Assembly (NCBI GenBank): GCA_017511375.1 | Contig: JAFWKJ010000005.1 | Span: forward strand, 1 to 43,256 | From: Bacilli bacterium | Lineage (GTDB): Bacteria; Bacillota_I; Bacilli_A; RF39; UBA660 | Reading direction: 5' to 3' | Length of the DNA stretch: 43,256 nucleotides | Shown here: piece by piece, positions 1,042 to 33,526 of the stretch | Layout: every line of letters begins with the position of its first letter | Numbering within the stretch: the stretch's first letter is position 1 | Made by a program: the position numbers and the translations under genes | Notes under the pieces: generated by a model | What the model was told of the DNA's origin: nothing | The model's input: the letters and a program-made list of their open reading frames with translations, nothing else | Database searches by the model: none

Positions 1042-4000
1042 ATGGCAAAACTAATAAAAAACTATTTAAATAATTTTGGTGATATTACAGAATATTATAA
1101 TTTTTTAGTAAATAAAACAAAGAATCATGAGTATGTAGATATTACCAATGAATGGTTAATTGATAATTACTATATTTTAGCAGAACACAAGAATACCATC
1201 ATGAATTCTATAAAGGATATTAAAAAGGATATTAAAGAAATTAATAGTAATTATACTATTCTAAAAAATATTGTAAGTAAGAAAAACTATAATATCAGTT
1301 TTAAATACTTAGTAGAGGAATTAAAAGCTTATCAAAAAGAAACAAAGAAGGCTTTTACATACAAAGAACTTAAGAATGTAATGCCAACACTAGTATTTAT
1401 CTATACAGAACGTTTAAATAACTTATGTAGAGAAGAATATGCCAAATTAGTAGATAAAGAAGATGTAGATAACATTATTAAAAGACAGGAAAATCATACA
1501 CTTCAGTCATTTATTCAAGAAAATTTTGATGTTAAAAATAATGGACACTATATTTTTGAAATTAATAATCAATTATATCGATTAAAAAATAGAAATGAGA
1601 TTTTTAAACAATTAAATGAGTATTTAAAAGAAAATCAAATTAGTTTAAAAGATGTTATTAACGAAGAATTCCAAAATAAAATTAATAGTAACGTACTTAT
1701 CTCTAATATTTTTAATGATTTTAATGAGTTTTTAGAATTTACAACAGAAGAATTATTTGAAAAGGTATCCAAAACAGAAAAACTATTAATGACAGATCCA
1801 AACTATAAGAATATGACTATCGAATCTAAGTATTCTTATCGTAAACGTTTATTAAAACTTGCAAAAAAAGCTCATATGGATGAATATAGTTATTTGGAAA
1901 AGATCTTTTCACCAGACGAACATATTGGTTTTAAACTATTTAAGACAAGAAGTAATACGCCAAAAGTAGTAATGTATTTAATGTATATTACCTTCATTAC
2001 TTGTATCATATGTTACTTGCTATCAGGAATATTTATTCGACCAAGAGCTATTGGTTTTATCATTTTACTAATTCCAATTGGACAATTAGTCATTCAGATT
2101 ACCAATCATATTTTAACGTCTATTGTACCACCTCATGTTATGCCAAAATTAGATTATTCTAAAGGGATTCCAGAAGAATCTAAAACGATGGTAGTTATTC
2201 CAACCATTGTAGGAAATACTGAAAAAATTAAAACCATGTTTGATATTTTAGAGTCTTTCTATCTAGTAAATAAAACAGATAATTTATATTTCACATTATT
2301 AGGAGATGTAAAGGCTGCGAATGAAAAAGAAACAGATTATGATCAAGAAATATCAGAATTTGGAAAAGAGTATGCCGAAAAATTAAATCAAAAGTATAAA
2401 AAAGATATTTTCTATTTTATTTATCGTAAGAGAATATGGAATAAGAAAGAAAACAGTTATTTAGGATATGAAAGAAAAAGAGGAGCTCTTGTTCAATTCA
2501 ATAAGATATTGTTAGGAGAAACCATTGATGAGGAGAAATACTTCAATGTCAATATGCTGCATGACAATAACTTAAAAATAAAATACGTGATTACACTAGA
2601 TACGGATACAAAATTAGTATTAAATTCAGCACTAAACTTAGTAGGGGCAATGGCACATCCTCTTAATCAGCCTGTATTAAATAACAAACAAACGAAAGTT
2701 ATTAAAGGTTATGGTTTAATGCAACCAAGAGTTGGATTAGACATAGAAGCAACTAATAGAAGTTTGTATAGTCAGATTTTTGCAGGAATTGGTGGTTTTG
2801 ATACTTATTCAGCCATTATTCCAAATGTATATCAAGACTCCTTTGGAGAAGGAAGCTTTGTAGGAAAAGGTATTTACAACCTAGAAGTATTTAATAAGAT
2901 TCTAGGAGATACTTTCCCTGACAACTTGATTCTTTCTCATGACTTATTAGAGGGTAACTATTTAAGATGTGGTTATGTATCTGATATTGAATTAATTGAT
3001 GATTTCCCATCTAAATTCTTAATTGATATTACAAGACATCATAGATGGGCTAGAGGAGATACGCAAATCATTGCTTGGTTAGGAAAGAAAGTTCCAGGTA
3101 AAAATGGAAAAAGAGAAAACCCAATTAATTTATTAGGAAAATATAAAATATTAGATAATATCATTCGTATGTTCTTAAATCCGATGCTATTACTAGTCTT
3201 ATTATTAGCATTTACTTTTAAAGGATTATATTCTTTCTTATGGGTAGGACTTGTCATTTTAGAATTAGCCATTTCTATCATCTTCTTCTTAAGAAGTAAA
3301 ATGACATTAAAAGAAAGACATAAGAAGAGTGTTTATTATAAGAATTTATATTTTGGAGGAAAATCAATTCTTCTAAGAGCTTATATTGGTTTTGCAACAA
3401 TTCCTTTTTATACAAAACTATATATGGATGCTTTCTTTAGAACCTTATATCGTTTATTCTACAGTCATAAGAATCTATTAAATTGGATTACAGCAGAAGA
3501 AGTAGAAAGAACTGTAAATGGAAGTTTATTAAACTACATTAGAAATTTCTTATTTAATTATTTCGTTGCGGGCATCTTTATTTTAATCGGAGTATTTACA
3601 AAGAATCCTCTAGCTTACGTTTTAGCAGCCATCTTCATGAGTGCTCCATTTGTTTTATATGTTGTAAGTAAAGATATCGATCATCATCCAATTGCATTAA
3701 AGGCAAAAGAAATAGATGATATTAAAGAACTTGCTGAAAGAACTTGGAATTATTTTGCAGATGGTTTAACAGAAGAAAATCATTATTTAATTCCAGATAA
3801 TTATCAAGAAAATAGAGACCAAAGATTAGATCATAGAACCTCTCCAACAGCCATAGGTTATTCCTTAACAGCTGTTGTAAGTGCCTATGAACTAGAATTT
3901 ATCAATCAAGCAGAAGCAGTGGATTTATTAGGTAACATTCTTACGTCTGTGGATAAATTAGATAAATGGCATGGTCATTTATATAATTGGTATGAAATAA

Positions 4001-7000
4001 AAGATATGAAGGTAATTAATCCACAATTTGTTTCTACTGTTGACTCTGGAAACTTAGTAGCAAGTTATATTGTCGCAAGAGAATTCCTATCAAAAATTGG
4101 AAATGAAGAGTATGTAAAATTATGTGATAAGTTAATCAAAAATACAAACTTTAAAAAATTATATACCAAGAAAGATGTGTTCAGTATTGGTTATGATGAA
4201 GATGAAGGAAAACTATCAGGATATAACTATAATAAGTTTGCCAGTGAATCAAGATTAACGAGTTATTTAGCTATTTGTTTGGGGGATGCTCCTTCAAAAC
4301 ATTGGTTCTGCCTTGATAAATCTTTGACAACTCACAAAGGGCATAAAGGATTAATTTCTTGGAGTGGAACTGCTTTTGAATACTACATGCCATATTTATT
4401 TATGAAGAATTATCCAAATACTTTATTGGATGAATCTTACCAATTCGCAACGATGTGTCAAAAAGACTATATCAATAAAGTGTCTCATAAATTACCATGG
4501 GGTATTTCAGAGTCTGCTTATAATGAATTAGATAATTCCCTAAATTATAAGTATAAAGCATTCTCAACACCATATTTAAAAGCCAAAGAAGAAAAAGAAA
4601 GTCGTATCGTACTTTCTCCATATTCTTCTCTTATGGTTTTAGATTTATATCCAAATGATGTTTACAATAACATTAATCGTTTTAAAGATTTAGAAATGTA
4701 TGGGGAATATGGATTATATGAATCCTATGATTATGATAATAAAGGAGTCGTAAAATCATACTTTGCCCACCATCAAGGAATGAGTTTATTAGGAATCACA
4801 AATTACTTAAAACAAGGAGTGATTCGTGATTATTTCCATTCGAATATCAATATAAAAACTTTTGAATTATTATTAAAAGAAAAAGTTCAAATTAAAGCTT
4901 CTATTGATTTAAAGATGGCTGGTTATAAAAAATATAACTATACAAAAGAAACCATTGAAAATGATATACGTTACTTTAACTACATTTCATACTTACCAGA
5001 AATGTCTGTTTTATCAAACAAAAAATACTCTTTGATTATGAATGATCGTGGAGATAGTTTTTCAAGATATCGTACAACGCAATTAAATAGATATCGTAAA
5101 GTAACAGAACAAGATTATGGTATTTTCCTATTTATTAAAGATGAAAAAACTAATAAAATTTGGAGTAATACGTATGCTCCAATGAATGAAAAACCAGATA
5201 AATATGAAATTGTTTTTGCAGCAGATAAAATCAAATATATGAGACGTGATGGAGATATCTCTACCAAAACAGAAATTGTAGTATGTAAAGCCCATCATGC
5301 TGAAATCAGAAAAATATCCTTTAAGAATGAATCAAATGAAGATCGAATTATTGAATTGACTACTTATACAGAACCAATTCTTTCTGAGAACATGGATGAT
5401 GTAACTCATAAGGTCTTTAACAATATGTTTATTCATACAAAGTATGATAAAGAAACAAATTGTTTGATTGCTAAGAGAAAAAATAGAGGAGATTCTAATG
5501 TAAGTAACTATATGTTTACGAAGATGATTATCAATGATCCTTTAGATGACTATAGCTATGAAACAGAAAGAGAAGATTTTATTGGAAGAAATAAAACATT
5601 ATCTACCTCTAAAGCATTAAGCGAACCATTAACAAATTACGCAGGAGATAACTTGGATCCTATTCTTTCTTTAAGAAATAGAGTGTTAATTCCAGCAAAT
5701 GAAAAAGTAACGATTTACTTATTAGCAGGATTTGGACGCAGTACGGAACAATTAAGAGATACCGTAGAATATTATGATTCAAAGAATGTTCTGGATAAAG
5801 AATTTAAAATTTCTACTTTAATGAATGTCATTGATACAAAGAACTTAAATATTACTGGAGATAATATGAGAACCTTTAATATTATGTTGAATTATTTGTA
5901 TCAAACAACCCGTTTATCTGTAAATGAAGAGAGAATGGATTTATTAAGAAACAATGCCTTAGGACAATCAGGATTATGGAAATTTGGTGTAAGTGGAGAT
6001 AGACCAATTATCACAATAGAAATTAAAAATATTAGTGATATGAGTTTTGTCTATGAAATCTTAAAAGCTTTTGAGTATTTCAAAAACAAATCTATCTTTG
6101 TAGATATTATCATTATTAATGATGAAACAGGACAATCTCAAAAACTAATTAAAAAACAAATAGAAGATGAACTATATCGAATCTATACTTTAAATAGTTT
6201 CTATCATACACCAGGTTCTGTAACAGTGATAAACAGTAGTAATATTACACCAGAAGATAGAAGCCTTCTAAATATGGTTCCAAGAATTCACTTTAATATT
6301 GATGATCATATTAGTTTAAAAGAAGCGGTATTAAAAATGCAAAAGGAAAATAAGATTAGTGATTATAAACAATATGATTTAGAAGAAAATGAACCATATA
6401 AGAATACAGAAAAATTAATGTATGACAATGGTTATGGTGGATTCAAAGAAAATGGAAAAGAATATGTAATCTATAATAAGGATACTCCAACACCTTGGGT
6501 CAATGTGATTGCTAATCCAACCTTTGGAACAGTCATTACAAACAATGGTTGTGGCTATACATATGCTTATAATTCAGGAGAATATAAAATCACTTCTTGG
6601 ACCAATGATATATTATTGAATGATAAATCAGAAGGATTTAAATTTAATGACAAAAACTTTGATCCGGAAAAATGTACCCATGGATTTGGTTATACGATTC
6701 TAGAAAGTGAAACCAAAGAATTAGGACATACAATTACAGAATTTATTGCACAAAAAGATAATGTAAAAATCTATTGGATGAAATTAAAGAACAAGACAGG
6801 AAAAAATCATAAAGTAAACGTAGATTTTTGGATTAATCCAACCTTTGGTAATTTCGAGGAAAAAACATCTCGTCATATTCTAACAGAATTTATGGGAGAC
6901 GATAACTACGTAAAAATGCGTAATGTTTATAGTATCAATTATGGAGATGTAAATGTCTTCATGACTGCTTCTGAAAAGATTGATCAAGCGATTACAGAAA

Positions 7001-8664
7001 GAATGTTAGTAAAAGATATTGCCTTTGATGTAGAACTTGCAAAAGACGAAGAAAAAGATATTATTTTCCTACTTGGTTGTAGTATGAGTGATTCTCAAAA
7101 CAAAGAACTAATTGCAAAATATACCAATGTAAAAAATGTTCAAAAAGAATTAAAACAAGTAAAAGAATACTGGGAACAAACACTAGGAGTAATTCAAGTA
7201 AAAACACCAGATACAAGTTTTGATTACATGATGAATGGTTGGTATTTATATCAAACCTTATCAGCTCGTATTATGGCAAAAGCGGGATTCTATCAAGTAA
7301 GTGGTGCTTTTGGATATCGTGATCAATTACAAGATGCCATGAATATCGCCTTAGTGAATCCAGCAGACACCAAAGAACAAATTCTTAAAAATGCGGCACA
7401 TCAATTTGAACAAGGAGATGTTCTACATTGGTGGCATGAAAAGAATCACTTTGGTTTAAGAAGTCGATATAAAGATGATTATTTATGGTTAGTTTACGCA
7501 ACGGCCTATTATACAGATATTACAAATGATTATAGTATCTTAGATGTAGAAGTTCCTTATATCATAGGAGAGGGATTAAGTGACTATGAAAGTGACAAGG
7601 GAATTGTATTTAGTTATACAGAAAAAACAGAATCCCTATTACAACACTGTATCAAATCACTTGAACTTGCTATGAACTCATTAGGAAAACATAAGATTCC
7701 TTTAATGGGTGGAGGAGATTGGAACGATGGAATGAACCGTGTAGGAATCAAAGGAAAAGGAGAAAGTGTATGGCTTGGATTCTTCCTTTACACGATCATT
7801 AATCAGTTCACAAAAATGGTTAAGAAAACAAAACATAAAGTGGATTTGAATCCTTATACGGAATTTAATGCTAAGTTAAAAGAAAACTTAAATAAGAAAA
7901 CATGGGATGGGGATTATTATTTAAGAGCTTTCTTCGATAATGGAGATAAACTTGGTAGTCATGAAAACGCAGAATGTAAGATTGATTTAATATCACAAAG
8001 TTTCTCAATCATTAGTGGGGTTGCTCCAAAAGAAAGAGCCGAAAAAGTGATAACCTCTGTGGAAGAAAACTTAGTAGATGATCAAAATAAGATTGTAAAA
8101 CTATTAACGCCACCTTTTGAAAAGACATTAAATAACCCAGGTTATATTATGAACTACTCAAAAGGAATTCGTGAAAATGGTGGACAATATACCCATGCTG
8201 TTTCTTGGTATTTAATGGCTTTAATCAAAGCAGGATATCATGATAGAGCTTATCGTTATTTCCAGATGATTAATCCAGTTAATCGTACACTTAATCAAGA
8301 CGATGTCACGAAGTATCGTGTAGAACCATATGTAATTGCTGCCGATATCTATTCTTCAGAATCCTTCCCAGGAAGAGGAGGATGGACTTGGTATACAGGT
8401 TCTGCTGGATGGTTCTATCGTGTGGGAGCCCAAGAGATATTAGGTATCCATAAGATGGGAGATAAATTAAAATTAGATCCAAGAATGCCAGTTGCTTGGG
8501 ACGGCTTTAAAATGAATTATCGATACATTGATACAGATTATAGTATTGAAGTAAAGAAAGATAAAAAAGAAGAGTTAAAAGTAGATGGTAAAAAACTAAC
8601 ATCAGATAACATATCTTTGAAAAACGATGGTAAGAAGCATACAGTTGTATTAACCGTTAAATAA
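1042..8664 (+). CDS. Cyclic beta-1,2-glucan synthase-like membrane protein (NdvB type; GT84 plus GH94)
   Basis: A 2540-residue membrane enzyme. In order: an N-terminal cytosolic helical region (1-300); two membrane segments (about 309-356); a glycosyltransferase domain (about 380-690) with Asp520-Thr-Asp522 as the DxD site and Arg668-Trp669 in an H-H-R-W motif; further membrane segments (about 711-750 and 830-875); a glucoamylase-like alpha/alpha-barrel domain (about 890-1290) of the type that cyclises beta-1,2-glucan; beta-sandwich regions; and a C-terminal GH94 phosphorylase domain (about 1820-2480) with Gly-Asp-Trp-Asn-Asp at 2225-2229, Asp2229 being the likely acid. In known enzymes UDP-glucose is polymerised, trimmed by the phosphorylase domain and ring-closed. 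The start has an AGGAG site. It forms a single-gene transcript closed by a terminator. Whether this one makes cyclic or linear glucan cannot be told from sequence. Confidence 0.88.
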   Translation: MAKLIKNYLNNFGDITEYYNFLVNKTKNHEYVDITNEWLIDNYYILAEHKNTIMNSIKDIKKDIKEINSNYTILKNIVSKKNYNISFKYLVEELKAYQKETKKAFTYKELKNVMPTLVFIYTERLNNLCREEYAKLVDKEDVDNIIKRQENHTLQSFIQENFDVKNNGHYIFEINNQLYRLKNRNEIFKQLNEYLKENQISLKDVINEEFQNKINSNVLISNIFNDFNEFLEFTTEELFEKVSKTEKLLMTDPNYKNMTIESKYSYRKRLLKLAKKAHMDEYSYLEKIFSPDEHIGFKLFKTRSNTPKVVMYLMYITFITCIICYLLSGIFIRPRAIGFIILLIPIGQLVIQITNHILTSIVPPHVMPKLDYSKGIPEESKTMVVIPTIVGNTEKIKTMFDILESFYLVNKTDNLYFTLLGDVKAANEKETDYDQEISEFGKEYAEKLNQKYKKDIFYFIYRKRIWNKKENSYLGYERKRGALVQFNKILLGETIDEEKYFNVNMLHDNNLKIKYVITLDTDTKLVLNSALNLVGAMAHPLNQPVLNNKQTKVIKGYGLMQPRVGLDIEATNRSLYSQIFAGIGGFDTYSAIIPNVYQDSFGEGSFVGKGIYNLEVFNKILGDTFPDNLILSHDLLEGNYLRCGYVSDIELIDDFPSKFLIDITRHHRWARGDTQIIAWLGKKVPGKNGKRENPINLLGKYKILDNIIRMFLNPMLLLVLLLAFTFKGLYSFLWVGLVILELAISIIFFLRSKMTLKERHKKSVYYKNLYFGGKSILLRAYIGFATIPFYTKLYMDAFFRTLYRLFYSHKNLLNWITAEEVERTVNGSLLNYIRNFLFNYFVAGIFILIGVFTKNPLAYVLAAIFMSAPFVLYVVSKDIDHHPIALKAKEIDDIKELAERTWNYFADGLTEENHYLIPDNYQENRDQRLDHRTSPTAIGYSLTAVVSAYELEFINQAEAVDLLGNILTSVDKLDKWHGHLYNWYEIKDMKVINPQFVSTVDSGNLVASYIVAREFLSKIGNEEYVKLCDKLIKNTNFKKLYTKKDVFSIGYDEDEGKLSGYNYNKFASESRLTSYLAICLGDAPSKHWFCLDKSLTTHKGHKGLISWSGTAFEYYMPYLFMKNYPNTLLDESYQFATMCQKDYINKVSHKLPWGISESAYNELDNSLNYKYKAFSTPYLKAKEEKESRIVLSPYSSLMVLDLYPNDVYNNINRFKDLEMYGEYGLYESYDYDNKGVVKSYFAHHQGMSLLGITNYLKQGVIRDYFHSNINIKTFELLLKEKVQIKASIDLKMAGYKKYNYTKETIENDIRYFNYISYLPEMSVLSNKKYSLIMNDRGDSFSRYRTTQLNRYRKVTEQDYGIFLFIKDEKTNKIWSNTYAPMNEKPDKYEIVFAADKIKYMRRDGDISTKTEIVVCKAHHAEIRKISFKNESNEDRIIELTTYTEPILSENMDDVTHKVFNNMFIHTKYDKETNCLIAKRKNRGDSNVSNYMFTKMIINDPLDDYSYETEREDFIGRNKTLSTSKALSEPLTNYAGDNLDPILSLRNRVLIPANEKVTIYLLAGFGRSTEQLRDTVEYYDSKNVLDKEFKISTLMNVIDTKNLNITGDNMRTFNIMLNYLYQTTRLSVNEERMDLLRNNALGQSGLWKFGVSGDRPIITIEIKNISDMSFVYEILKAFEYFKNKSIFVDIIIINDETGQSQKLIKKQIEDELYRIYTLNSFYHTPGSVTVINSSNITPEDRSLLNMVPRIHFNIDDHISLKEAVLKMQKENKISDYKQYDLEENEPYKNTEKLMYDNGYGGFKENGKEYVIYNKDTPTPWVNVIANPTFGTVITNNGCGYTYAYNSGEYKITSWTNDILLNDKSEGFKFNDKNFDPEKCTHGFGYTILESETKELGHTITEFIAQKDNVKIYWMKLKNKTGKNHKVNVDFWINPTFGNFEEKTSRHILTEFMGDDNYVKMRNVYSINYGDVNVFMTASEKIDQAITERMLVKDIAFDVELAKDEEKDIIFLLGCSMSDSQNKELIAKYTNVKNVQKELKQVKEYWEQTLGVIQVKTPDTSFDYMMNGWYLYQTLSARIMAKAGFYQVSGAFGYRDQLQDAMNIALVNPADTKEQILKNAAHQFEQGDVLHWWHEKNHFGLRSRYKDDYLWLVYATAYYTDITNDYSILDVEVPYIIGEGLSDYESDKGIVFSYTEKTESLLQHCIKSLELAMNSLGKHKIPLMGGGDWNDGMNRVGIKGKGESVWLGFFLYTIINQFTKMVKKTKHKVDLNPYTEFNAKLKENLNKKTWDGDYYLRAFFDNGDKLGSHENAECKIDLISQSFSIISGVAPKERAEKVITSVEENLVDDQNKIVKLLTPPFEKTLNNPGYIMNYSKGIRENGGQYTHAVSWYLMALIKAGYHDRAYRYFQMINPVNRTLNQDDVTKYRVEPYVIAADIYSSESFPGRGGWTWYTGSAGWFYRVGAQEILGIHKMGDKLKLDPRMPVAWDGFKMNYRYIDTDYSIEVKKDKKEELKVDGKKLTSDNISLKNDGKKHTVVLTVK

Positions 8665-17904: not shown

Positions 17905-19905
17905 ATGCTAGGAAAAATTGAAGAGATTCAAGATAACCAGGTCAAAATTAAACTAGATATAGACATAACAGAACAACCAAGTTTAGTAAACTTGCATGTT
18001 GTTTTTGATGATGGTTCAAAAAAAATAGTAGGAGAGATTGCCAATACGGATAAACAACACATGACTGTAAACGTCGTAGGAGAGTTGGAAGATAATTCCT
18101 TTATCCCAGGAGCAAGTGTTAAACCATCCTTCAAATCTAAAGTAAGACTGATTGAAATGTCTGAATTGGAATTGGTATTTGGAAAACAAGAAACAACACT
18201 TGGTTATACCAACTTTGGTACTAGTAACGTATATGATGGTTATAAAATAAATGTAAGTATTAATGAATTCTTCAATAGCCATTTTTCTATCCTAGGAAAC
18301 TCTGGAGCCGGAAAAAGTTGTACCGTTGCTTCTATTTTACAAAAACTCTTTACATCATCACCAACCCCACCAGTCAATTCAGGATTGTTCTTTTTCGATG
18401 CATATGGTGAGTATACACATGCCTTTGGAAAAATACATGAACACAACCCAGCTTTAGGTTATAAAGCCTATACGACAAATATTATTGATCCTGATTGCGA
18501 AATATTAAGAATTCCTATTTGGTTATTGGATATTGACGATTTAGCATTACTTTTAGATGCGAATACACCAGCTCAATTACCAATTATTGAAAAAACTTTA
18601 AAATTAGTTCGTATTTTGACAGGTACGAGTGAAAAAGTTATTAGAAGAAAAAATGATATTATTGCAAGAGCCCTACAAGATATCTTGTTAAGTGGTAATG
18701 ATTCTACCAAAATCAGAGACCAAGTAATCGGTGTTTTAACTAAATTTAATACACCAACTCTTAACTTGGAAAGCCAAATTGTACAACCTGGTTATACAAG
18801 AACCTTAAAACAATGTTTGTTCGTAGATAAAACAGGTAAGATGCAAGAAATGGAATTGGTAGTAGAATTCATTCGTGGGTATATTATTGAAGATGAAGTA
18901 TTAGATGAATCAGATGCAAACCCATTCTATTCCTTAAATGATTTAGAGTTAGCAATGGATTTTGCTTTGATTAGTGAAGGTGTTTTAAAAAGTGATAAGG
19001 TTTTTGATAATGCCAATGTCATGAGTGTTCGTCTTCACTCCCTAGCAACAGGAGAAAATAGACACTACTTTACTTATCCAAAATATATTACAAAAGATCA
19101 GTTTGTAGAGTCACTTTTATGGGATGCCCAAAAAGGATCACGTGTTCAAATAGTTAACTTTAATATTAACTATATTGATGATCGTTTAGCAAAAGTAATT
19201 ACCAAGATTATTTCAAGAATGTTATTTATAAAATCAAGTACCATTAAGCCAAGGGGTAGTAGAGCTTTTCATATCATCATTGAAGAGGCTCACCGTTATG
19301 TACAACATGATAAAGATATTGAATTATTAGGATACAACATATTTGAACGTATTGCGAAAGAAGGACGTAAATATGGTATGTTCTTAGCTATGATTACGCA
19401 GCGTCCAAGTGAGTTGTCAGATACCTGTGTATCGCAGTGTGCAAACTTTGTCATCCTAAGAACGATGCACCCTGTAGATTTACAATATATAAAAGAAATG
19501 GTTCCAAGTATTTCGAGTGAAATATGTTTACAATTGAAGAACTTGAAACCAGGAAACTGTATTGCTTTCGGAAGTGCCTTTAAAGTACCAACTTCTATGT
19601 ATATTGATCTTCCTGATCCAAGGCCACTTTCCAACAACGTCGATTTGGAAAAGGTTTGGTATACAGCACAAGCGTCTGCAAGACCAGAAGATGTATCACC
19701 AGTTATGGAGATTGTACCTCAAGCTACTCAGGCTCCACAGGCAGCACCAGCTCCTGTAGCCCAAGCACCAGCAGCTCCACAAGGGCAAGTGTTACCACCA
19801 CCAATGGGAGCAATGCCACCAGCTGCACCACAACCTGTACAGCAACCAAATCCACAACCAGGAATGATGGCGCCTCCAGGAAGTGTAAACCCTGCAGTTA
19901 TCTAA
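17905..19905 (+). CDS. HerA/FtsK-type DUF87 ATPase with a Pro/Gln/Ala-rich tail
   Basis: 666 residues from the ATG at 17905, seven bases after AGGGGTG; a GTG at 17902 is possible. An N-terminal beta-barrel of about 100 residues (HAS-barrel type) precedes a RecA-like ATPase with Walker A Gly-Asn-Ser-Gly-Ala-Gly-Lys-Ser at 131-138 and a Walker B-like Ile-Ile-Ile-Glu-Glu-Ala-His at 457-463. Family members form hexameric DNA pumps or helicases. In archaea HerA works with NurA in end resection, but no nuclease gene is adjacent here. Residues from about 604 to the end are a low-complexity Gln/Pro/Ala tail, probably disordered and used for contacts. Single-gene transcription unit. Confidence 0.8.
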   Translation: MLGKIEEIQDNQVKIKLDIDITEQPSLVNLHVVFDDGSKKIVGEIANTDKQHMTVNVVGELEDNSFIPGASVKPSFKSKVRLIEMSELELVFGKQETTLGYTNFGTSNVYDGYKINVSINEFFNSHFSILGNSGAGKSCTVASILQKLFTSSPTPPVNSGLFFFDAYGEYTHAFGKIHEHNPALGYKAYTTNIIDPDCEILRIPIWLLDIDDLALLLDANTPAQLPIIEKTLKLVRILTGTSEKVIRRKNDIIARALQDILLSGNDSTKIRDQVIGVLTKFNTPTLNLESQIVQPGYTRTLKQCLFVDKTGKMQEMELVVEFIRGYIIEDEVLDESDANPFYSLNDLELAMDFALISEGVLKSDKVFDNANVMSVRLHSLATGENRHYFTYPKYITKDQFVESLLWDAQKGSRVQIVNFNINYIDDRLAKVITKIISRMLFIKSSTIKPRGSRAFHIIIEEAHRYVQHDKDIELLGYNIFERIAKEGRKYGMFLAMITQRPSELSDTCVSQCANFVILRTMHPVDLQYIKEMVPSISSEICLQLKNLKPGNCIAFGSAFKVPTSMYIDLPDPRPLSNNVDLEKVWYTAQASARPEDVSPVMEIVPQATQAPQAAPAPVAQAPAAPQGQVLPPPMGAMPPAAPQPVQQPNPQPGMMAPPGSVNPAVI

Positions 19906-19917
19906 TTAAAAAAAGTG

Positions 19918-19946
19918 TTGACATTTTAAAAAATATAAATTATAAT
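19918..19946 (+). promoter_or_regulatory. Full-consensus promoter of the candidate non-coding RNA
   Basis: TTGACA (19918-19923), exactly 17 bp, TATAAT (19941-19946): a perfect housekeeping-sigma promoter and the strongest in the window. Predicted start about 19953. Confidence 0.88.
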
Positions 19947-19952
19947 GAATTT

Positions 19953-20244
19953 GACAATAGTATAGAAGTATCGTAATTAAACGACACAGAATAGGATTCA
20001 ATAAATAGAAAATATTTATAATAATAACGGAAAGTTATTAGAGTCGGCAAAAGTGATTGATTTAATGAAAATACTTTTTTGTAAAAATGCTATTGTACTA
20101 GCAATATTGCACATAAGAAGGAAAACTTAGAAAAATTTATTTATAAAGCTAATAGATGAGTTTTTTAAAAACCTAGATTAAGCCTCATGAACTTAATCTA
20201 CATGACGTAAGCAATGGTGATAACTATTGCTTATGTTTTTTTTT
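19953..20244 (+). ncRNA. Candidate structured non-coding RNA of about 290 nt, family not recognised
   Basis: Between the HerA-like gene and sepF a perfect promoter and a strong terminator bracket about 290 nt with no convincing ORF but a series of hairpins. 20001-20007 pairs with 20013-20019; 20022-20028 with 20034-20040 (GGAAA loop); 20049-20054 with 20073-20078; 20088-20095 with 20102-20111 (small bulge); 20174-20182 with 20192-20200 (9 bp perfect); then the terminator hairpin. I looked for the conserved signatures of tmRNA, RNase P RNA, SRP RNA and 6S RNA and did not see them. It is not a sepF leader in the usual sense, because it ends in its own terminator and sepF has a separate -10. Confidence 0.65.
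20205..20244 (+). terminator. Terminator of the candidate non-coding RNA
   Basis: 13 bp stem (20205-20217 with 20224-20236, two G-U pairs), TGATAA loop and nine T. Confidence 0.92.
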
Positions 20245-20295
20245 ACTTAAAATGGACAGATTTTTTAAAATAATCTTTTTCTTTTTTTAAAAATA

Positions 20296-20304: not shown

Positions 20305-20360
20305 TGAAATAGTAAATAAGTATGCATGTGCAGATTAGAATAGAAGGAGAGATCAATCAT

Positions 20361-31924: not shown

Positions 31925-31943
31925 TTAGAGAATGGAGGATAAT

Positions 31944-32438
31944 ATGATTAACAAACAAAACTTATGGTTTATGACATTATTTAGTTTAATACTAGTACTA
32001 GGAGTATATTATGTAACAGTACCGAATGATACATTAGAGAAGATGAAAACAAAGATAGAGGAGAAAAAAGAAGAAGAACCTGTAGTAGAAGAATCCTCTT
32101 TAACAGCTTTAAGAGTAAACAAAGAAAATATACGAAAAGAAAAAAGAGAGTCTTTAGAAAACTCACTGACAAGTGATAATCTAACAACCGAAGAAAAAAA
32201 TAACACCTATGAATTATTAAAAAACTTAAATGAAATACAAGGAACGGAAGAAAAAATAGAAAAGAAAATCAAAAAAGATTTAGGATTAGATTGTTATACA
32301 AAGATTGATAATACAAACGCATCAGTTGTTTGTGTGGCAAAAGAACATGATAAAAGTTTAGCCAACCATATCATGAGGATGGTACAAAAATACTATGAAG
32401 AAAGAATAAATGTAACTGTAAAATTTCAAAAGAGTTAA
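31944..32438 (+). CDS. SpoIIIAH-like sporulation protein
   Basis: 164 residues from the ATG at 31944; the ATG at 31932 contains the ribosome binding site GGAGG and is rejected. The N-terminus (Asn-Leu-Trp-Phe-Met-Thr, then a membrane segment ending Gly-Val-Tyr-Tyr-Val-Thr) is characteristic of SpoIIIAH. The C-terminal domain (about 105-162) has the ring-building fold pattern with two cysteines. SpoIIIAH bridges mother cell and forespore membranes by binding SpoIIQ. The rest of the spoIIIA operon is not adjacent, and the protein is shorter than in Bacillus (218). Confidence 0.78.
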   Translation: MINKQNLWFMTLFSLILVLGVYYVTVPNDTLEKMKTKIEEKKEEEPVVEESSLTALRVNKENIRKEKRESLENSLTSDNLTTEEKNNTYELLKNLNEIQGTEEKIEKKIKKDLGLDCYTKIDNTNASVVCVAKEHDKSLANHIMRMVQKYYEERINVTVKFQKS

Positions 32439-32464
32439 ACAAACGAAAAACAATTCATACAATA
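32439..32464 (+). promoter_or_regulatory. Candidate SigK/SigE-type promoter of the gerE-like gene
   Basis: AC (32439-32440), 15 bp, CATACAATA (32456-32464), fitting the SigK -10 pattern CATAnnnTA and also the SigE form CATACAAT. gerE is SigK-dependent in Bacillus. Confidence 0.5.
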
Positions 32465-32478
32465 CTCTAGGTGATACT

Positions 32479-32685
32479 ATGAATTTATTAACGCCAAGAG
32501 AAAAAGCAATATTTGAAAAAATCATTAATAATTATTCGACCAAAGAAATTGCATCAGAACTTGGTATTAGTGAAAAAACCGTTAGAAATCATATTTCAAA
32601 TGTAATGCAAAAACTAGGAACCAAGAGTAGAGCAAGTACCGTAATCGAATTAATTAGATTAAAAGAGTTTTCTCTTGAAAGGTGA
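32479..32685 (+). CDS. gerE: GerE-like LuxR-type DNA-binding regulator
   Basis: 68 residues made of a single LuxR/GerE helix-turn-helix domain, as in Bacillus GerE (74 residues). The segment Thr-Lys-Glu-Ile-Ala-Ser-Glu-Leu, then Ile-Ser-Glu-Lys-Thr-Val-Arg-Asn-His-Ile-Ser-Asn matches GerE as I remember it almost residue for residue. GerE is the last regulator of the mother cell line and controls coat genes. It lies between spoIIIAH-like and gerM-like genes, and its end is four bases before the gerM start. Confidence 0.85.
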   Translation: MNLLTPREKAIFEKIINNYSTKEIASELGISEKTVRNHISNVMQKLGTKSRASTVIELIRLKEFSLER

Positions 32686-32689
32686 TCAA

Positions 32690-33526
32690 ATGAAAAAAGT
32701 TTTTTCAACAGTTCTTATTATGTTTTTGGTTGTGGTAATTTCAACTTTCCCAACGATTACGAAAAAGAATGTTATTAGAACCAATTTTGAAATAGAAAAA
32801 CAAGCACTTCCTGGGGCTACCCTATATTTACTAAATCAAGATGATTATTTAGTAGAAGTAGAAGTAATCCTGCCAGAAAATGACAAGATACAAAGTATTT
32901 TTGACTATTTAAAAATAGAAAACAAAGTGAATCAAAAATGGAAAGGTTATATTCCCAAAGAAGTAAAAATAGAAGATTATCAATTAAAAAATGGATTGTT
33001 GGAAATTCATTTTTCAGAAGAAGCCAAAGAAATTAAAAAGGAATACTTATCCGGTATAGTAGAATCTTATCTAAAACAAGAAGGGATAGAAAAAGTAGAA
33101 ATTTTTATCAAAGAAGAAAAAATGCAGACGATTCCATCCATCAATTTAATGAGAGAAAACCCGAACCGAGTAAACCTAGAAAAGATGGTACTATTCTATG
33201 TGGAAGATATAACAAATAATCATTTGGTTCCTGTAACAAAATATATTGAAACCAATCAAGATAAAATAGAGAAAATCTTAGAGGAGTTAAAAGCTAATCC
33301 ACCCTCTCATTTAATTAGTTATGTGAATGAAAACTTAAAACTAAAGGATTATCAAATAGAAAATGATATTTTAATACTAGATTTTAATCATAACTTGATA
33401 GAAGATCCAGAAAAAAAAGAATGGTTACTAGAAGAAATTGCTTATTCCATGATGAAGAATTTAGAGGTAAATGCCGTTCTATTTCAGGTAGAGGGAAAAC
33501 AAGAAGCACTAATACTAAATAAGTAA
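32690..33526 (+). CDS. gerM: GerM-like sporulation protein with two GerMN domains
   Basis: 278 residues from the ATG at 32690 (AAAGGTGA upstream); a TTG at 32675 lies inside the gerE end and is rejected. An N-terminal membrane anchor (about 4-22), without the lipobox cysteine of Bacillus GerM, is followed by two GerMN domains (about 50-140 and 165-275), each with an amphipathic strand pattern and a closing Leu-Phe-Gln-Val or Ile-Phe-Ile strand. GerM is needed for SpoIIQ-SpoIIIAH zone assembly, so finding it with a SpoIIIAH-like gene makes sense. Confidence 0.78.
   Translation: MKKVFSTVLIMFLVVVISTFPTITKKNVIRTNFEIEKQALPGATLYLLNQDDYLVEVEVILPENDKIQSIFDYLKIENKVNQKWKGYIPKEVKIEDYQLKNGLLEIHFSEEAKEIKKEYLSGIVESYLKQEGIEKVEIFIKEEKMQTIPSINLMRENPNRVNLEKMVLFYVEDITNNHLVPVTKYIETNQDKIEKILEELKANPPSHLISYVNENLKLKDYQIENDILILDFNHNLIEDPEKKEWLLEEIAYSMMKNLEVNAVLFQVEGKQEALILNK

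Follow-up and report, generated by a model that had tools for sequence, protein, structure and literature searches.

The spacer between a HerA-like ATPase gene and sepF in an uncultured gut lineage of Bacilli carries a putative free-standing noncoding RNA gene, whose product appears to be a relative of PGK RNA and its partner RNA and most likely acts as an abundant homodimeric structural RNA. The locus lies in a stretch of 43,256 nucleotides that was analyzed as a whole and is called the window here (Bacilli bacterium, GCA_017511375.1, JAFWKJ010000005.1, positions 1-43,256 of the forward strand; GTDB RF39; UBA660). The HerA-like gene ends with a stop codon at 19905, directly followed by the promoter of the RNA, and the downstream neighbor at 20322 is sepF by Pfam. 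Other genes in the window include SpoIIIAH-like and Germane-domain genes (31932-33526) and one whose 2540-aa product carries GH94 as well as glucoamylase-like domains and resembles cyclic beta-glucan synthases (1042-8664).

A preliminary description of this DNA had singled out a full-consensus promoter as unique in the window. Indeed, it is the sole match with one mismatch or fewer, where about one is expected by chance. What gives the promoter weight is therefore chiefly its constant placement with respect to the RNA across relatives. Specifically, the distance from the -35 element to CRATAG, the first strand of the closing helix P1, is exactly 37 nt in nine of ten relatives and about 36 nt in the tenth (the spacings in genomes G001 and G033 were read from separate sequence listings), and this constancy places the predicted transcript start at P1. 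The probable abundance of the RNA is deduced from the same promoter. At the other end, the terminator reported earlier is present and closes the unit with a T-run, but its stem comprises 15 pairs rather than 13 bp. The bracketed transcript of about 295 nt, described before as about 290 nt of structured RNA devoid of a credible open reading frame, indeed has none (the longest plus-strand frame starting inside it has 25 codons) and folds at -70.1 kcal/mol, compared with -43.0 +/- 4.2 kcal/mol for shuffled sequences (z -6.5; none of 200 shuffles equals it).

Features of the window RNA locus, in window coordinates
Feature	Position	Strand	Basis or remark
Promoter TTGACA-17-TATAAT	19918-19946	+	12/12 consensus positions
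P1 5' strand CAAUAGUA	19955-19962	+	fixed promoter distance; predicted transcript start here or immediately upstream
Variable middle: short helix GGAUUC/GAGUC and two hairpins (20002-20018, 20023-20039)	19994-20045	+	MFE fold, lengths
P1 3' strand UGCUAUUG	20088-20095	+	pairing kept in relatives
Site A, palindrome GCAAUAUUGC (proposed site of RNA-RNA dimerization)	20101-20110	+	palindromic in 10/10 relatives; trans-complementary in PGK/partner pairs
h2 hairpin UAAG-AAGGAAAA-CUUA, conserved loop	20114-20129	+	covariation
h3 long hairpin, loop 20145-20151 with AGCU (GGCC in G036)	20130-20166	+	covariation
AAAACC linker, conserved	20168-20173	+	sequence conservation
h4 hairpin, loop palindrome UCAUGA (20185-20190)	20174-20200	+	compensatory changes in 6/9 pairs
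Intrinsic terminator and U-run	20204-20244	+	15-pair stem (4 G-C) at 20204-20237, then T-run

Searches with known families place the RNA outside all of them by score. At gathering scores, Rfam reports one tRNA only in the whole window, and its best score over the RNA region is 16.8 bits, which is at chance level. As had been stated before, tmRNA, RNase P, SRP and 6S are not recognizable here by Rfam or ARAGORN; a tmRNA was found separately in a relative. Similarly, the covariance models for OLE, ROOL and GOLLD leave window-type RNAs unmatched, and the PGK RNA model (RF03040, gathering score 50.8 bits) gives no match to them up to an E value of 10.

Comparison among genomes nevertheless reveals a family. 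A DNA similarity search returned a single clear relative, at the same locus in G036, and further relatives were uncovered through shared motifs. A covariance model of the 3' core then detects the RNA in 10 of the 39 genomes of the genus with E values of 1e-6 to 1e-17; eight of these members were used to build the model and match by construction, whereas those in G015 and G001 were found independently. A second covariance model recovers the same ten and has no confident member in 40 other genomes, and neither model has a convincing member in other genera or elsewhere in the family. When a loose DNA pattern was run over genome and viral collections, most matches were due to chance, and the model retained genus members only and no viruses. 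One PGK-like viral match was rejected, since it lacks an Rfam match and sits in sequence that appears to be repetitive and protein-coding. The core model also has a weak minus-strand match at 20174-20266 (26.6 bits), probably reflecting the near-symmetry of h4 and the terminator.

The ten members share a fixed architecture around a middle of very different size. Their length after the -10 element ranges from 297 to about 940 nt (end points were set partly by eye) because the middle gains tandem hairpins; long members carry many such modules, and one stretch of 933 nt folds at a z of -9.7. In four long members (L043, L046, L047, L055) we observe arrays of modules of about 40 nt with UACGN-type loops, whose linkers could pair with others farther along, as in a construction from repeated junction tiles. 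Divergent T-box leaders scoring under the Rfam cut-off are also seen 3' of divIVA in L054 (774-969) and L055 (773-967).

Covariation supports the predicted helices outside this middle. All eight P1 pairs are kept across the ten members, and five of them show changes (the strands were aligned by hand). In the 3' core (20101-20200), 18 pairs have changes on both sides and 95.3% of cells are paired among the ten sequences. The covariation score of 0.574 compares with 0.275 in shuffles (0 of 500 reach it) and at most 0.163 in slid versions; the ten-sequence alignment was fitted to the model, and an earlier eight-sequence alignment made without the model agrees. The compensatory changes that had been predicted for h4 are thus found, whereas the helix at 20022-20040 falls within the part of the RNA that varies freely among relatives.

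Despite its lack of an Rfam match, the RNA is not an orphan. By searching for the promoter-P1 spacing and the h2-AAACC motif, a sister RNA was found in the same genus, where it adjoins matches to RF03040. These matches occur in 30 of the 39 genomes, only one of them reaching the curated cut-off, whereas 14 control genomes have none; the window's own genome (1.2 Mb, but only 70% complete) yielded none either. PGK RNA itself lacks an explanation so far, to our knowledge, and our literature search on it found nothing. The RNA beside it, here called the partner RNA, is undescribed.

When the window-type model was applied to 34 PGK/partner loci, it gave 22 weak matches up to an E value of 5, 20 of them with the position, strand and register that were predicted (placements were compared by hand; about 0.2 correct ones are estimated by chance). 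This agreement argues for homology between the window RNA and PGK RNA, although by Rfam score the window RNA is not a member. Both have their own promoter and terminator, and share the order of site A, h2 with its A-rich GAA loop, a hairpin, an AAAC linker and a second hairpin. Unlike PGK RNA, however, window-type RNAs are closed by P1 and reach 940 nt, whereas the RF03040 model is limited to 92 nt and does not include the second loop. The partner RNA (L283-L295) matches the window RNA in promoter spacing, a CAATAG P1 strand, the AAGAAGGAAAACTT hairpin, AAACC and the position of h4, but at site A and in the h4 loop it is complementary to PGK RNA and not to itself. We therefore take the window RNA to be a distant homologue of PGK RNA and of the partner RNA, the latter appearing to be its nearest kin. 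The alternative left by the preliminary description, a divergent or a new RNA, thus stands as to a free-standing structured RNA that Rfam does not match, but not as to an isolated class.

PGK RNA and its partner are complementary at two sites: PGK domains carry UGUAAUU at site A and the loop CUGAUAA, and partner domains carry AAUUACA and UUAUCAG. The loops were used to select these sequences, which leaves site A as the one free test of complementarity. There, PGK/partner pairs from one locus read UGUAAUCUU/AAGAUUACA, UAUAAUUUUC/GAAAAUUAUA and AUGUAAUUUUU/AAAAAUUACAU, and the duplex score is 22.1 within loci compared with 16.5 between loci (0 of 20,000 permutations; like our Fisher test, these ignore shared ancestry). 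The two RNAs are probably separate transcripts at many loci, where a terminator and a promoter intervene; at others the spacing is short enough for one. Single-RNA PGK types in other genera bear both loops on one RNA, the second in the terminator hairpin, and the loops covary (CUGAUAA/UUAUCAG becomes CUGACAA/UUGUCAG). Their site A is palindromic in 33 of 35 distinct sequences (CAAUUG types, AUACACGUGUAU, AAGCGCGCGUUU, UAUGAUCAUA, AAUGUAUACAUU and others) with AU, UA, CG or GC centers, compared with 0 of 8 loci that have no second loop; whether this loop is present was in part decided by eye, leaving aside a few unclear loci. Two RF03040-like RNAs (L331, L376) with a palindromic B1 loop (ACUAGU) and a non-palindromic site A possibly represent a further pairing type.

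The window RNA shares a palindromic site A with these single-RNA types, but PGK loops are complementary to each other, whereas its h3 and h4 loops are each self-complementary; CUGAUAA and UUAUCAG are absent from it. Self-complementarity thus occurs at three places, namely site A and the AGCU and UCAUGA loops. Every one of the ten members has a self-complementary site A, among them G001 with GCAACGUUGU; the palindrome score of the site is 13.3 versus 5.9 for shuffled sequences, and a dimer of the core is predicted to be 11.4 kcal/mol better than two monomers. The self-complementarity could be incidental in a monomeric RNA whose site A and loops form hairpins in cis or bind proteins: a small hairpin with a loop of 4 nt can form at site A, and the UCAUGA loop is invariant among relatives. 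We nevertheless consider a monomer unlikely, because palindrome centers that are unable to pair in cis change yet stay self-complementary (among AU, UA, CG and GC in the single-RNA PGK types, and among window-type RNAs in h3 from AGCU to GGCC and in site A from UA to CG, each in one genome only, the former being G036), and because PGK RNA and its partner pair at the same sites although they are often separate transcripts, each with its own promoter and terminator. The same reasoning has been applied to OLE and GOLLD, where changing palindrome centers supported intermolecular contacts, the neighboring bases being unable to pair in cis; in OLE, for which there is kissing-loop evidence, palindromes switch among GGCC, GAUC and AGCU (PMC12286853). 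That the palindromes are instead DNA operators for a transcription factor, as the appearance of ACAATATTGT might suggest, is scarcely credible, given that site A lies downstream of the start, is wholly different between genera while still palindromic, and is hetero-complementary in two-RNA loci.

Gene context bears on whether the RNA acts in cis. Seven members lie between herA-like genes and sepF, two precede pcrA (identified by eye as a gene for a UvrD/PcrA-type helicase) and one is elsewhere, whereas in most genomes of the genus the herA-sepF spacer measures 70-200 nt and is devoid of the RNA. The prevailing location, and the Rfam type of PGK RNA (Cis-reg), would suit a role as leader or attenuator of sepF, or as trailer to the HerA-like gene. 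We regard such a role as quite improbable: the window RNA has its own promoter and terminator, its three kinds of site imply no fixed link to a downstream gene, and the genes 3' of PGK RNAs, read by eye, differ among loci. One of these, at L346, is an apparent phosphoglycerate kinase gene preceded by a canonical PGK RNA, which is probably the origin of the name; because other PGK RNAs precede unrelated genes, the Cis-reg type is doubtful. This diversity of neighbors makes a trans-acting role likelier than control of a neighbor. Several partner/PGK loci (L283, L284, L288-L292) lie between rplL and a gene for an rsmC-like small-domain methyltransferase, followed by rpoB-like sequence, and often have as neighbors paired small proteins that bear a YWNGENAY motif (judged WXG-like by eye, with no Pfam match). 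A link of PGK loci to WXG-like or EssC-like neighbors was set aside, as it has no Pfam support and the scanned genes of the window show none.

As the sequence shows, the promoter at its fixed distance is followed by a variable 5' domain closed by P1, the conserved 3' core and the terminator. Two copies of the RNA would then pair at the site A palindrome and at the self-complementary loops of h3 and h4 to form a two-fold symmetric homodimer, the corresponding sites being those that would join PGK RNA to the partner RNA in the sister system, and the hairpin-rich middle may serve as a variable scaffold. More tentatively, and with somewhat less confidence than the homodimer itself, we propose that the whole PGK superfamily consists of dimer-forming RNAs, with repeated switches between palindromic homodimers and obligate heterodimers whose two RNAs are encoded separately; the window RNA would be a third, self-pairing lineage grown into large, ornate homo-oligomers. 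In this family, pairing partners can be read from sequence as palindromes or hetero-complementary sites. PGK RNA and its partner are a likely natural RNA heterodimer, and PGK RNA thereby gains a partner, a full length and a directly testable idea.

Judging by its strong promoter, its structure and its variable hairpin arrays, the RNA may well be scaffold-like and of a similar kind to OLE, ROOL and GOLLD. Unlike those RNAs, the window RNA has no Rfam match and no phage link was found, and it is known from sequence alone. Like them, it is large and noncoding, and it presents the same kind of kissing-loop evidence (PMC12286853).
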